A DNA stretch of 64,000 nucleotides from Mucilaginibacter rigui (GTDB lineage: Bacteria; Bacteroidota; Bacteroidia; Sphingobacteriales; Sphingobacteriaceae). Position numbers and translations under genes: made by a program. Below the pieces are notes generated by a model. That model was not told the origin of the DNA, did no database searches, and worked only from the letters and a program-made list of their open reading frames with translations. Location of the stretch: the NCBI RefSeq assembly GCF_014773275.1, contig NZ_JACWMW010000002.1, positions 248,001 to 312,000 of the forward strand, read 5' to 3'. Below are positions 8,381 to 13,028 of the stretch, one piece after another (positions within the stretch are counted from its first letter, which is position 1; each line of letters begins with the position of its first letter).

Positions 8381-8728
8381 TTAAACCCTTTTTGACTTGA
8401 TACGAGCTGCTTTACCGGTAAGGGCACGCAGGTAGTAAAGTTTAGCGCGACGTACTTTACCAACGCTGTTAACTTCAACTTTATCAATATTTGGAGAATT
8501 GTAAGGGAAGATACGCTCAACACCTATACCGTTAGAAACTTTACGTACAGTAAAGGTTTCGCTGTTACCAACGCTGTTACGTTGTAAAACAACACCCTGG
8601 TAAACCTGGATACGTTCTTTATTACCTTCTCTGATTTTATAATGCACACTAACAGTATCACCGGCCTTAAATGACGGGAAGGTATTCTTAACTACTGTTT
8701 GTTCTTCTACAAATTTTACTAAATCCAT
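8381..8728 (-). CDS. rplS: 50S ribosomal protein L19
   Basis: A 115-residue ribosomal protein at the interface of the two subunits. It is recognisable by [16 protein letters not shown], the Q-V-Y-Q-G-V-V segment, [15 protein letters not shown] and the C-terminal [15 protein letters not shown]. Length is normal. It is the last gene of rpsP-rimM-trmD-rplS, here 202 bases after trmD instead of the usual tight spacing. The leader contains a perfect hairpin (8747-8769). A weak promoter-like TATATTTC lies further upstream, so rplS may be transcribed separately. Confidence 0.97.
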
Positions 8729-8746
8729 GATTTTTAGCTCTTAAAG

Positions 8747-8769
8747 CGATTTTTAACCCGTAAAAATCG
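8747..8769 (-). promoter_or_regulatory. Perfect 9-bp hairpin in the rplS leader
   Basis: CGATTTTTA and TAAAAATCG flank a 5-base loop (ACCCG on the plus strand). The stem ends 18 bases before the rplS start codon. It has no T-run suited to termination on the minus strand. It could be a structure controlling L19 translation; that is inferred from position alone. Confidence 0.5.
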
Positions 8770-8930
8770 GAGTGCAATAATAAGGATATTATTTGAAATA
8801 TAAAAACCTATTTTTAAAATTTCCACAAATTGTATTTTGTTAACAAGTTGTGCTGGTTTTTTGGTTGATTGAGTTGATTATGAGAGTGGTTTTAAACTAT
8901 GCGCTACTCAAACCAATTAACTATTCTTTA

Positions 8931-9605
8931 TTACTCCAACAGGTCGGGCCTCCTTTGTTTGGTACGCTCAAGGGCCTGCTCAAAACGCCATTTTTCTATT
9001 TCGGGCGTGTTTCCGCTTAACAGTATGTCGGGCACTTTATGCCCGTTCCAATCGGCAGGGCGTGTATAAACAGGTGCATCCAGCATATCATCCTGGAAAG
9101 AATCAGACAGGGCCGAAGTCTCGTCGTTCAATACGCCGGGTATCAGCCTCACTACGGCATCAACCAGCACCGCTGCGGGCAGTTCACCGCCCGAGAGTAC
9201 ATAATCACCTATCGAGATCTCGCGTGTAACGTAGATGTCGCGGATGCGTTGGTCAATCCCTTTATAATGGCCGCAAAGTATAATGACGTTTTTTTTGATG
9301 GATAGCTGATTAGCTATATTTTGGTTCAGTGTTTCACCATCGGGGCTCATGAAAATAATCTCGTCATATTCGCGCTCGCCTTTTAGTTTCTCTATACAAG
9401 CCGCAAATGGTTGTATGGTCATCACCATACCGCTGCCACCACCATAAGGGTAATCGTCAACACTTTTTTGCTTGCCGGTGGCATAATCGCGCAGGTTATG
9501 CACCACAATTTCTGCAACGCCCTTTTTTTGCGCACGCTGTAAAATAGAATGGGCAAAGGGGCTTTCTAACAAACCGGGCAAAACAGAGATGATATCAAAA
9601 CGCAT
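8931..9605 (-). CDS. trmD: tRNA (guanine-37-N1)-methyltransferase
   Basis: A 224-residue SPOUT methyltransferase that methylates G37 next to the anticodon and so prevents frameshifting. The trefoil-knot motifs are all visible: [23 protein letters not shown], and [15 protein letters not shown], which together form the S-adenosylmethionine pocket. The N-terminal Y-P-Y-G-G-G-S-G-M is also standard. TATCTTTG lies four bases before the ATG and could be a -7 element of a nearly leaderless transcript, but no good -33 partner is present. In most bacteria it directly follows rimM; here about 2.3 kb intervenes. Confidence 0.96.
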
Positions 9606-9627
9606 TGGGCAAAGATACTTTTATTAG

Positions 9628-9702
9628 AAGCAAGAGTAAAGAATCAAGAACCAAGATTTTTTCCCTTCATCTTGATTCCTGATTCTAAAAGTCTTGATTC
9701 TC
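9628..9702. repeat. Inverted repeat of the AAGAATCAAGA type
   Basis: The left part reads GAATCAAGAACCAAGA and the right part TCTTGATTCCTGATTCT, with a further TCTTGATTC copy at the end. The element fills the spacer between trmD and the VOC gene. It resembles the arms around the terminator at 40113-40260. Confidence 0.5.
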
Positions 9703-10086
9703 CCCTATATCTTTTTCTGTATTTGCCAGCAATGGCCAAAAATGTCGATGATCGCCCTGGCGGTAGCCATAGTCGAAGTCCTGTACAGGCGAGGTGATCT
9801 TAGCTCCGGCAGCAACGGCTTGGGCAACCACGGCATCTACATCATCAACAAAAATATTTACAGATACGGTACTTGCATTCGCTCTTGTTGGACTTATCAG
9901 TGTGGTTTCCCATTGCTCATGCAAATGGAACGTTGCCCCGCCAATAGAAAACTCTACCACGTGGATACTGCCATCATCATTGCTAAAGCGGTGTACTTCT
10001 TCCGCATCGAAGGCTTTTGTGTAAAAACTTACATCGGTTACCCCATTGGGGATAATGAGCATCGGTGCAAATATTGGTGTTGCCAT
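9685..10086 (-). CDS. VOC (PhnB/glyoxalase-like) protein with frameshifted C-terminus
   Basis: A 133-codon frame of the vicinal-oxygen-chelate superfamily, PhnB-like. The N-terminus reads M-L-I-I-P-N-G-V-T-D-V-S-F-Y-T-K-A-F-D-A-E-E-V, then F-H-L-H-E-Q, N-I-F-V-D-D-V-D-A-V-V and D-Y-G-Y-R-Q-G. The family then expects x-x-x-D-x-F-G-H-x-W. In this frame the end is unrelated (D-H-R-H-F-W-P-L-L), whereas the neighbouring frame from base 9755 reads A-I-I-D-I-F-G-H-C-W-Q-I-Q-K-K-I and stops at 9705-9707. So the gene has lost or gained bases near 9754-9757, or the sequence has an error there. It is the last gene of the cassette inserted between rimM and trmD. Confidence 0.8.
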   Translation of the reverse strand: MATPIFAPMLIIPNGVTDVSFYTKAFDAEEVHRFSNDDGSIHVVEFSIGGATFHLHEQWETTLISPTRANASTVSVNIFVDDVDAVVAQAVAAGAKITSPVQDFDYGYRQGDHRHFWPLLANTEKDIGENQDF

Positions 10087-10109
10087 ATGCTAATTTAGGT
10101 AATAGTTTA

Positions 10110-10310
10110 TTAATCAACATCTTCCAGCTCAAAAATAGCTTCAACCGGTTTATTAAAAACCCGGGCTATTTTTAAAGCCAGTACGGTAGATGGCACGTAT
10201 TTATTACTCTCGATAGTATTAATGGTTTGCCGCGATACACCAATGGCCTCAGCAAGTTCGGCCTGGGTTATGTTTTTTATAGCGCGTTCTACACGCAAGG
10301 TGTTTTTCAT
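10110..10310 (-). CDS. Small XRE-family transcriptional regulator
   Basis: A 66-residue protein that is nearly all helix-turn-helix: I-T-Q-A-E-L-A-E-A-I-G-V-S-R-Q-T-I-N-T-I-E, followed by P-S-T-V-L-A-L-K-I-A-R-V-F. It ends in the acidic E-A-I-F-E-L-E-D typical of the short YozG/YgzD-like group. Such regulators commonly sit beside small membrane protein genes and repress their own operon. Here it lies 10 bases after the 298-residue membrane protein gene and 23 bases before the VOC gene. The palindromes upstream of the first cassette gene (11692-11752) are its most likely target, by position only. Confidence 0.92.
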   Translation of the reverse strand: MKNTLRVERAIKNITQAELAEAIGVSRQTINTIESNKYVPSTVLALKIARVFNKPVEAIFELEDVD

Positions 10311-10320
10311 AATGCGTTTA

Positions 10321-11217
10321 TTACAACAGGTTTAGGTTGCTTTTTGCTGAAGCCACATCCGGTTTCCGGATTTTGTATAATCGATAGTGAAATACTATTA
10401 AAAAAATGGCCGGGATAGTAACAAAGTTGAAGGCCATAACAAATAAAAAGTCGGTGCTGTAAAAAGCAAAATTTGCTATCAATAATATAATGTAGTTTGC
10501 ATACACCGAAAGTTGCATAGCCTCGAGTCTTATAGCGCTAATATACTCGTCTTCCTGTTTTTCTTTAGAGAATACCCATATTAACATTGGTAAGGGCAGT
10601 GTATAAAACAGCCAGGTGATATCTTCGCGCTTAATGCTTTGAGCTATTATCATCACAGCAAAAGCGACAGATAGTGTTTGCCCAATAAGGCGATAGGGTT
10701 TATTCGGTAAAAATTTGATAGTTTTTATTTCGTACTCATCGTTACGTTTATATAAAAGGTAATAAAAACGAGCCATAAAAATAACCAATGGCGTAAACAA
10801 ATTATAAGTCATAAAGGTAAAGCCACTGGCAATAACTTCAATCGCCTTCTCGATCAATCGCAATTGCAAAACATTATTTATGGCTGCTGTAATTAAAAAC
10901 ATCGCGTACATAACATAATTAGCCAATATGGCCCAATACAAAGCATTAAGCCTAATGTTCGCCGTTAGTTCATCTTCTAATTTCTGCTTGCTAAACGCGA
11001 TGAAAATTAAGCCGCCTACTACCAATGTTAAGGCAAGTTCATTTGTAAAATTTTCGTAAGCGGGTAAAAATAATTGGCTCTGCTCTCTAAGCTGCATACC
11101 AAAACCCGGAATTTTGTAGTCGTTATAAACAACCATATAGCCAAGTACAAAGCCTGGCAATGCCAAAAGCCATCCGAATAGCCTAAAGCGGTGGGGAAAT
11201 AATAATCGTGATTTCAT
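10321..11217 (-). CDS. Membrane protein with two copies of an FSKxKxEDE unit
   Basis: A 298-residue integral membrane protein with about eight hydrophobic segments and no family that I recognise. It is an internal duplication. Residues 75-101 read F-S-K-Q-K-L-E-D-E...I-R-L-N-A-L...A-N-Y and residues 216-242 read F-S-K-E-K-Q-E-D-E...I-R-L-E-A-M...A-N-Y. Each unit ends in a P-x-x-F helix followed by a basic tail. The next gene upstream encodes a single copy of the same unit. The start codon context is identical to that of the upstream gene, which supports 11217 as the start. The charged motif would lie between two helices, probably on the cytoplasmic side. Confidence 0.85.
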   Translation of the reverse strand: MKSRLLFPHRFRLFGWLLALPGFVLGYMVVYNDYKIPGFGMQLREQSQLFLPAYENFTNELALTLVVGGLIFIAFSKQKLEDELTANIRLNALYWAILANYVMYAMFLITAAINNVLQLRLIEKAIEVIASGFTFMTYNLFTPLVIFMARFYYLLYKRNDEYEIKTIKFLPNKPYRLIGQTLSVAFAVMIIAQSIKREDITWLFYTLPLPMLIWVFSKEKQEDEYISAIRLEAMQLSVYANYIILLIANFAFYSTDFLFVMAFNFVTIPAIFLIVFHYRLYKIRKPDVASAKSNLNLL

Positions 11218-11244
11218 AATTGTAAAGTTTAATGGTGTACATTA

Positions 11245-11688
11245 TTATGATAAGTCAACTTCTTTTGCAGCGTCCCTGTTAAGGCGGAAGATCATCCAGC
11301 GAAAGCGGATAATAAAGAATATCAGTGGCGCCCATACCGCTGTTAAGATTATATACATCAACTCAATTGTATTGGTAAATACAACACAAATGGCCAGTAT
11401 AAAATAATTTAAATATACCGCCCACTGTAATGATTCCAACCTGATGAGCGAGATATGCTCATCTTCTATTTTTTCTTTAGAGAAGGCGATAAATATCAAT
11501 CCGAAAAGCAACAGCAAAGCGGTAGTGTCATGCGAGAGCTTCATTCCCGGCTGTGCGTCATGATGCAACTCCTGTGCAAAACCATGCGGATGCAGAATTT
11601 TAAAAGCAATGGCAAATAGAACAACCGCTATAAAACAGAAGTACCCTATCCTTCGATAATAATGTGGAAACAAAAACCGTGATTTCAT
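11245..11688 (-). CDS. Membrane protein with one FSKEKxEDE unit
   Basis: A 147-residue membrane protein with four hydrophobic segments. The shared motif is at residues 69-95 (F-S-K-E-K-I-E-D-E...I-R-L-E-S-L-Q-W-A-V-Y-L-N-Y). It is clearly related to each half of the downstream 298-residue protein. An ATG 63 bases upstream is possible, but the start at 11688 is favoured for two reasons: both proteins then begin M-K-S-R, and the roughly 24 bases around the start codon are identical in the two genes. It is the first gene of the cassette and is preceded by nested palindromes. Function unknown. Confidence 0.82.
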   Translation of the reverse strand: MKSRFLFPHYYRRIGYFCFIAVVLFAIAFKILHPHGFAQELHHDAQPGMKLSHDTTALLLLFGLIFIAFSKEKIEDEHISLIRLESLQWAVYLNYFILAICVVFTNTIELMYIILTAVWAPLIFFIIRFRWMIFRLNRDAAKEVDLS

Positions 11689-11691
11689 AAT

Positions 11692-11752
11692 TGTAAAGTT
11701 TGATTTACCAAATGTAAAACAAACTTTACAAATGTCAAATATATTTGACATT
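11692..11752 (-). promoter_or_regulatory. Nested palindromes upstream of the XRE/membrane cassette
   Basis: Two dyads lie directly before the first cassette gene. TGTAAAGTTTG (11692-11702) and CAAACTTTACA (11720-11730) are perfect 11-base arms. Bases 11731-11752 form a perfect 22-base palindrome with TATATTTG inside it, matching the Bacteroidota -7 pattern TAnnTTTG on both strands. No good -33 TTG is seen on the minus strand. A regulator binding here would cover the promoter; the cassette's own XRE protein is the natural candidate. Confidence 0.6.
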
Positions 11753-11809
11753 TTTTTTATCTATTAAAGTTTCCTTGCAAAGGAGGAATAAAAGCGGCCT
11801 TTATAAAAC

Positions 11810-11851
11810 AAAAAAGGCGCTAAAACTGCAAATTATGTGCGTCTTAGCGTC
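11810..11851 (-). terminator. Terminator after rimM
   Basis: On the minus strand GACGCTAAGAC-GC pairs with GC-AGTTTTAGCGCC (one mismatch, one bulge), followed by six T residues. It separates the rpsP-rimM transcript from the inserted cassette. Confidence 0.65.
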
Positions 11852-11876
11852 TCTGCCTGAAAAAAACCCGATTATG

Positions 11877-12404
11877 TTATCCCTCTAAATAAACATCCAG
11901 CAAACCGTCCGGCAAGGCAATATAAATCTCGCCGCCTTCTACGTCAATTCCTTTTATGATCTCTACATTCAGCGGGAACAGTACCTCTTTATTTTTAAAA
12001 TTTACAGATGCGATAAGCTGCTGCGGATATTCAACTACATCCAGTATCTCGCCCAGTTCACCGTGTGTTTCATCAACCGCAATAAAGCCTTTTACATCTT
12101 TAAGGGTAAACTCTTCTTTCTTCTTTTTAGGCTTTACCTTGTTAGGCAGGTAGATGTCCTTTTTTACCAGCATGGTTGCCTTTTCAATAGTATCTATATC
12201 CTCCAGGTTTAGGTAAGCCTGGTTCTTTTGCAAAAACTTTATCGAGCTTACAAAATAAGGCACCAGCTTACCCGCAATATCCACAAATAACGATTTGATC
12301 TTGATAGCTTCCGCGCCTTCAAAATCAATATATACCTGCATTTCGCCTTTAAGGCCTTTGGTTTTTAAAATGCTGCCCAGCCTGAAACAATCCTCGGTTT
12401 TCAT
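11877..12404 (-). CDS. rimM: 16S rRNA processing protein RimM
   Basis: A 175-residue factor that binds ribosomal protein S19 and helps 30S head maturation. The N-terminal barrel shows F-R-L-G-S-I-L-K-T-K-G-L-K-G-E-M, the family's standard opening. The C-terminal PRC-barrel part includes V-K-G-F-I-A-V-D-E, the G-E-I-L-D-V-V-E-Y-P-Q-Q motif, and V-L-F-P-L-N-V-E-I-I-K. The ATG at 12404 puts this motif near the N-terminus; the ATG seven codons upstream would add an odd prefix. It follows rpsP by 75 bases that contain a hairpin. It is separated from trmD by the cassette. Confidence 0.94.
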   Translation of the reverse strand: MKTEDCFRLGSILKTKGLKGEMQVYIDFEGAEAIKIKSLFVDIAGKLVPYFVSSIKFLQKNQAYLNLEDIDTIEKATMLVKKDIYLPNKVKPKKKKEEFTLKDVKGFIAVDETHGELGEILDVVEYPQQLIASVNFKNKEVLFPLNVEIIKGIDVEGGEIYIALPDGLLDVYLEG

Positions 12405-12423
12405 AACGATACGGTTAAATAAC

Positions 12424-12456
12424 AATGGCGAAGAACCGTTGGGTTACTTCGCCATT
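12424..12456 (-). other. Intercistronic hairpin between rpsP and rimM
   Basis: AATGGCGAAG (12424-12433) and CTTCGCCATT (12447-12456) are perfect 10-base arms around a 13-base loop. No T-run follows. It could be an RNA processing or stability element that lets rpsP be expressed above rimM. Confidence 0.5.
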
Positions 12457-12479
12457 TGCTTAGAACTTGCGTTCAATAA

Positions 12480-13028
12480 TTACTCAGCGCTTTCTGCTTC
12501 AGTTTCGGTATCAGCAGCAGCTTCTTCAGCCGGGGCCTCAGTTGCTTCTTCTTCTACTTCTTCAGCTACAGGAGCATTTTTAGCAGCGATAGCTGCAGCT
12601 TTATCTTCTTTCTTTTTAGCTTCAGCAATTAAAGCCAATTTACGGGCTTCGTCTTTTGCAGCGTTAAGATTTGATTTTTTACCTGTTATTTTGCTGTCTT
12701 TTTGATCTAACCACTCAGCAAATTTAGTTTCTGCCTGTTCTTCGGTTAAAGCACCTTTTTTAACACCGCCTTGTAAGTGTTTTTTGTATAATACGCCTTT
12801 GTATGACAGTATTGCACGGCAAGTGTCTGTTGGCTGTGCGCCATTGTTTACCCACTCAAGAGTTTTTTCGAAATTGATGTCGATTGTAGCTGGGTTGGTG
12901 TTAGGGTTATATGAACCTACACGCTCAATAAAACGACCGTCTCTTGGAGCACGGGCATCTGCTACTACGATGTAATAAAAAGGTTTTCCTTTTTTACCGT
13001 GTCTTTGCAGTCTGATCTTAGTTGCCAT
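12480..13028 (-). CDS. rpsP: 30S ribosomal protein S16 with acidic tail
   Basis: The first 80 or so residues are standard S16: [32 protein letters not shown] with [10 protein letters not shown]. The protein then extends to 182 residues, about twice the length in Proteobacteria or Firmicutes. The extension has a lysine/alanine-rich helix and a final Ala/Glu tail ([15 protein letters not shown]). Long S16 tails are common in Bacteroidota. First gene of the operon; a TACCTTTG -7-like element lies about 54 bases upstream. Confidence 0.96.

Follow-up and report, generated by a model that had tools for sequence, protein, structure and literature searches.

The window, by which we mean the whole 64,000-nucleotide stretch of Mucilaginibacter rigui DNA analyzed here, carries between rimM and trmD three minus-strand genes that encode, in order, a 147-residue protein, a 298-residue protein, and a 66-residue XRE regulator. 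The initial annotation had recognized the first two as a membrane protein family built on an F-S-K-x-K-x-E-D-E unit (FSK in the following) and had placed them correctly; the feature reaches farther, with predicted operators to position 11750 and the XRE gene to 10110 (Table 1). The smaller protein starts at the ATG at 11688, an alternative 168-residue reading frame merely extending back into the promoter.

Table 1. Features of the FSK module and its surroundings, in window coordinates.
Feature	Position	Strand	Remarks
rpsP, precedes rimM	12480-13028		sequence
rimM, host gene upstream	11877..12425	-	sequence; conserved context
Predicted operator O1, TGTCAAATATATTTGACA, perfect palindrome	11733..11750	-	contains -33 TTTG (11736-11739)
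Predicted operator O2, TGTAAAGTTTGTTTTACA	11713..11730	-	right half overlaps -7 box TACATTTG (11709-11716)
Predicted operator O3, GGTAAATCAAACTTTACA, 1 mismatch	11692..11709	-	ends 3 nt before first ATG
Single-unit FSK membrane protein, 147 aa	11245..11688	-	4 TM helices; FSKEKIEDE at 69-77, R83
24 bases also present at 11678-11701, the single gene's start region	11207..11230	-	half operator only, no full site
Double-unit FSK membrane protein, 298 aa	10321..11217	-	two complete units: E81-D82-E83/R89 and E222-D223-E224/R230
CylR2-type XRE/HTH_3 regulator, 66 aa	10110..10310	-	final gene of the module
Glyoxalase-family gene, between XRE gene and trmD	9685..10086	-	outside core module; in many Mucilaginibacter
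trmD, host gene downstream	8931..9605	-	sequence
rplS, after trmD	8381-8728		sequence

The conserved rpsP-rimM-trmD-rplS operon, which spans 8381-13028 in the window, is split by the FSK module in most Sphingobacteriaceae loci, and in many Mucilaginibacter one or two glyoxalase-family genes also lie between the XRE gene and trmD. The gene order is reversed at two loci (L131 and L119), where the operator is followed by the double FSK gene and then by the single one. At another (L041, 3710-4683) the operon contains an extra, strongly diverged 265-residue FSK gene and a decayed 59-residue XRE copy, which looks like a duplication of the entire module with one copy now degenerating. In a genome for which the family search returned no FSK gene, an XRE gene fragment, 71% identical over residues 36-66, lies between rimM and trmD (L211, G021:C95:541040-541132) and is probably a relic of module loss.

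The FSK membrane protein family

The smaller protein carries one unit, starting at residue 69, and the larger two, FSKQKLEDE from residue 75 and FSKEKQEDE from residue 216, as the initial annotation had read them. The family is indeed without a name: no Pfam or NCBIfam model covers either protein, and scans with Pfam, NCBIfam, PHROGs, and PADLOC assigned the FSK membrane proteins to no family. Among 24 members, one matched 7TMR-DISM (PF07695) at 18.7 bits, below the cut-off of 29, and two matched DUF2178 (PF09946) weakly, the best E value of 0.012 falling short of the curated cut-off. A profile search with the family found no match among PDB sequences, and no FSK relatives were found in viral contigs and plasmids. 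Foldseek and VIA-align comparisons to the PDB returned generic helical matches only, none above Z 7, and these are no evidence of a new fold. Our searches of the open-access literature turned up no account of either the family or the D-E signature discussed below. Within the taxonomic family, 36 of 151 genomes contain relatives of the single FSK protein, and the FSK profile had matches in 62 of 396 sampled genomes from the class (16%) and in 32 of 296 from the phylum (11%).

The motif is conserved well above chance: across 67 homologues less than 60% identical, D76, E77, and R83 are 100% conserved, E75 varies once (99%), and F69, L6, G15, F125, and F129 are kept at 96-97%. The P-x-x-F helix proposed to end each unit is not general in this set, since F125 and F129 are conserved (96%) with no proline there at the 70% listing threshold. 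The basic ends did hold up, the mean net charge being +3.1 at the N-terminus and +2.5 at the C-terminus. By the positive-inside rule, positively charged segments face the cytosol, and both termini and the motif loop are therefore predicted to be cytosolic. In the AlphaFold model of the single protein (pLDDT 87), the chain forms four long helices and the motif occupies the turn that links helices 2 and 3; the model of the double protein (pLDDT 77) is a string of helices repeating the single-unit plan.

The same 24 bases, AAACTTTACAATTATGAAATCACG, occur in the start regions of both FSK genes (11678-11701 and 11207-11230), and this identity had been taken as the mark of a tandem duplication followed by fusion. 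Duplication plus fusion is upheld by our tree, and the start identity as its sign is not. All first units of the ten double proteins form one group (98/83) and all second units another (99/97), which points to a single ancient fusion, so that the adjacent 147-residue gene is not a recent parent of the fused one. The 24-base identity, full or partial, occurs only in some Mucilaginibacter (for example L099 and L134) and is absent from most relatives. On the tree and these relatives we rejected it as a leftover of the duplication behind the fused gene; comparison of the sequences marks it as a separate, young, local event.

A CylR2-type regulator and its predicted operators

The 66-residue protein aligned with CylR2 (PDB 1utx) by phmmer at E=5.1e-14 over residues 3-62, which makes it CylR2-like, and matched HTH_3 at E=2.6e-14. 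When the XRE neighborhood of the family was counted, as the initial annotation had proposed, the XRE gene lay directly 3' of an FSK gene, mostly with a few-base overlap, in 105 of the 109 loci checked; two of the other four were later shown to have the HTH gene, and two end at contig edges. The reciprocal search gave the same picture in the class sample, where most HTH homologues adjoin an FSK gene. The FSK family, for whose motif no function had been known, is read here as the membrane half of a two-part regulator; it is a real, conserved, and apparently undescribed family of membrane partners of CylR2-type autorepressors.

Conservation of the DNA 5' of the first gene extends to loci whose proteins have diverged. 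It contains two or three tandem inverted repeats, TGT[AC]AA-N6-TT[GT]ACA, with a pitch of 20-21 bp, which are predicted operators. The arrays lie solely 5' of the first gene and overlap its -33/-7 promoter; internal FSK genes in the family loci had no upstream operator at one mismatch. These loci contain 59 operator sites versus 0.44 expected, and the class-level set, mostly from other families, contains 40 versus 0.17. The Bacteroidota -33/-7 promoter consensus is TTTG/TAnnTTTG. The right half-site merges with this -7 box (TACATTTG) in 59 loci, and the -33/-7 pair is present in 56 of 124 distinct promoters, versus 0.45 in shuffles. In the window, the spacer between the -33 element and the -7 box at O2 is 19 nt.

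Sites combining the operator with TTTG, termed strict here, numbered 17 in 30 genomes, and all 17 stood at the module's own promoter, which argues that the main target of the regulator is its own operon. Five genomes of the same genus without a strong FSK family match had no strict site. Strict sites were confined to 14 of the 30 genomes because the operators of several module-bearing genomes have diverged, so weaker sites elsewhere are possible. O1 is one of 4 perfect operator matches in the 4.7 Mb genome. Two other perfect matches, at L069 inside a gene and at L066 between genes, were considered as a regulon and rejected; they have neither an array nor a -7 box and are taken as chance.

The D-E pair and the adjacent regulator gene

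Conservation of the charged motif in homologues holds for those with an adjacent XRE gene and fails where that gene is absent. D76-E77 was present in 79/79 diverged FSK members with the XRE gene, and the pair was absent from 13/13 non-redundant orphans without one, all of which keep R83 and most of which retain F-S-K. E77 survives in about half of the orphan rows and D76 in one; the loss therefore concerns the pair as a whole. Orphans were first met outside the class, and 13 is the non-redundant count after the sample was enlarged. In the tree they form one clade nested among the HTH-bearing rows (100/99), which indicates one D-E loss followed by drift to many residues and not 13 independent losses. 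The rows of this clade are L236-L239, L242, L243, L247-L258, and L268-L276; the orphan protein probably has some regulator-independent activity.

A second, independent case of D-E loss is provided by fused copies that stand apart from the module in some Mucilaginibacter, behind the HTH and glyoxalase genes. There the first-unit E-D-E was lost in 4/5 loci (L040, L114, L117, and L130) and kept in L105. Nearly all doubles that adjoin an HTH gene retain E-D-E and R in both units. Some orphan genomes carry CylR2-like HTH genes elsewhere, which ties the D-E pair to the adjacent gene. Apparent exceptions were traced to an HTH gene with a long ORF start (L097 and L116), a broken HTH frame (L260), or a contig edge (L161 and L164); one weak match, L277, was excluded from this comparison. 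Retention with an adjacent XRE gene and loss without it argue that the D-E pair serves to dock the partner and not some activity of the membrane protein itself. This co-variation suggests that the charged motif is the point through which the membrane may control the regulator.

A related pattern was seen at the corresponding place in other membrane partners of CylR2-type regulators. DE-x4-[ILVM] stands just before a TM helix in 20 of 22 unrelated partners, versus 1.2 in composition-matched shuffles, and the two missing it, from Streptomyces and Priestia p9, still carry a D-E. The partners came from Bacteroidota (L199, L213-L215), DUF2178-like loci (L179-L188), and plasmid loci of CylR2-like genes in Bacillota, Pseudomonadota, Actinomycetota, and haloarchaea; 6 of the 22 were obtained by a DUF2178 profile search and not via the HTH gene. 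A 96-residue partner beside a Priestia lantibiotic locus, used as a stand-in for CylR1, has DE-x4-I and an HTH neighbor.

DUF2178 proteins beside XRE genes in archaea and Bacillota likewise have about four TM helices, a CylR2-type HTH neighbor, and DE-x4-[IL] where a TM helix begins on the cytosolic side. They differ from FSK proteins in lacking F-S-K, the N-terminal L-x-P, and R83. The profiles gave no significant match in either direction (hhalign probability <1%), and direct homology of the two families is unsupported by this comparison. Because they do not align, the shared motif may reflect convergence or chance placement, and the pattern is short. We judge the chances even that CylR2-type partners of bacteria and archaea, otherwise unrelated in sequence, share one docking device, a D-E on the cytosolic side where a TM helix begins, with I, L, or V four residues on, and that the FSK family is its Bacteroidota form. 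The signature could represent either convergence or deep homology.

A proposed membrane-controlled switch and its alternatives

Our preferred reading, to which we give a probability of about 0.7, is that the operon is a membrane-controlled switch in which a CylR2-type autorepressor docks on its FSK partner through the D-E pair. The basis is in silico and comprises gene pairing, operator and promoter anatomy, the site at the module's own promoter, D-E co-variation, and the predicted fold. The 66-residue protein would bind, as a dimer by analogy with CylR2, to the tandem operators across the -33/-7 promoter and, again as CylR2, repress its own operon. The four-helix FSK proteins, encoded on one messenger with the regulator, would offer it their D-E on the cytosolic side where helix 3 begins, and docking there may remove the regulator from DNA or alter its DNA binding. 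Operon expression would then depend on how much membrane protein is present or on its state, in a direction we can only infer. As the module's own operator is the only strong one in the genome, the main output would be the membrane protein itself. The signal sensed is probably a membrane or envelope condition.

It is unlikely that the FSK protein is instead an inhibitor of the LytTR type, which would keep at the membrane, until a signal frees it, an HTH protein that activates its own operon by positive feedback. This would agree with the LytTR Regulatory Systems HdrRM and BrsRM, two-gene units in which a DNA-binding regulator with a membrane partner is autoregulated via repeats at its own promoter (PMC6193735), and with the position of the first operator at or upstream of -33. 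The best-conserved operator, however, overlaps the -7 box, a better fit to a repressor, and the closest relative of solved structure, CylR2, acts as one (PMC3709268). The LytTR systems differ further in that their regulator carries a LytTR domain, whereas the one here is an XRE protein without it, their membrane protein inhibits an activator, and their repeats are direct and upstream of -35.

We also doubt that the module serves the rpsP-rimM-trmD-rplS operon by tuning translation and tRNA-modification genes to the state of the membrane. For modules between rimM and trmD, their usual position in Sphingobacteriaceae, downstream genes could be driven too; in several of these genomes the XRE stop is 10 bp from the trmD start, leaving no space for a second promoter. 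In many Mucilaginibacter, however, 0.5-2 kb separates the module from trmD, and outside Sphingobacteriaceae the module is free-standing with unrelated or convergent downstream genes. The downstream genes are therefore not a general output, and the FSK membrane protein is itself likely the effector. A toxin-antitoxin system, with the membrane protein a pore-forming toxin and the XRE protein an autorepressing antitoxin, is very improbable. An XRE autorepressor with a small membrane protein, and a weak PADLOC match to AbiC (E=0.003), would suit such a system, but the toxin-like gene lies 5' of the regulator and persists without it in the orphan clade, the chromosomal position is stable, and there is neither a plasmid match nor a known toxin family.

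The proposed membrane-controlled switch most resembles CylR1/CylR2 of the Enterococcus faecalis cytolysin operon, in which a small membrane protein is likewise encoded with a 66-residue XRE regulator belonging to the same family. In that pair the regulator binds the promoter and the partner relays a signal by an unknown route (PMC3709268), and an inverted-repeat operator overlapping the regulated promoter is predicted here as well. CylR1 is suspected to have three TM helices, whereas the FSK partner has four, or eight; and CylR1/CylR2 controls a separate toxin operon in response to a peptide, whereas the FSK module has no toxin operon and its strict sites all lie at its own promoter. We regard the FSK pair as working like CylR1/CylR2, and it is not filed under CylR1, which was compared by description, or under DUF2178 or the LytTR Regulatory Systems.

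The mechanism by which CylR1 signals to CylR2 is not understood (PMC3709268). The loss of D-E where the adjacent regulator gene is absent, together with its occurrence in partners of unrelated sequence, picks out two residues as candidates for mutation. If true, a shared docking device would explain phosphorylation-free membrane signaling by CylR1-like proteins. A function is thereby proposed for a widespread unnamed family of Bacteroidota, and the module would offer a ready-made autorepressor/operator pair for these bacteria.
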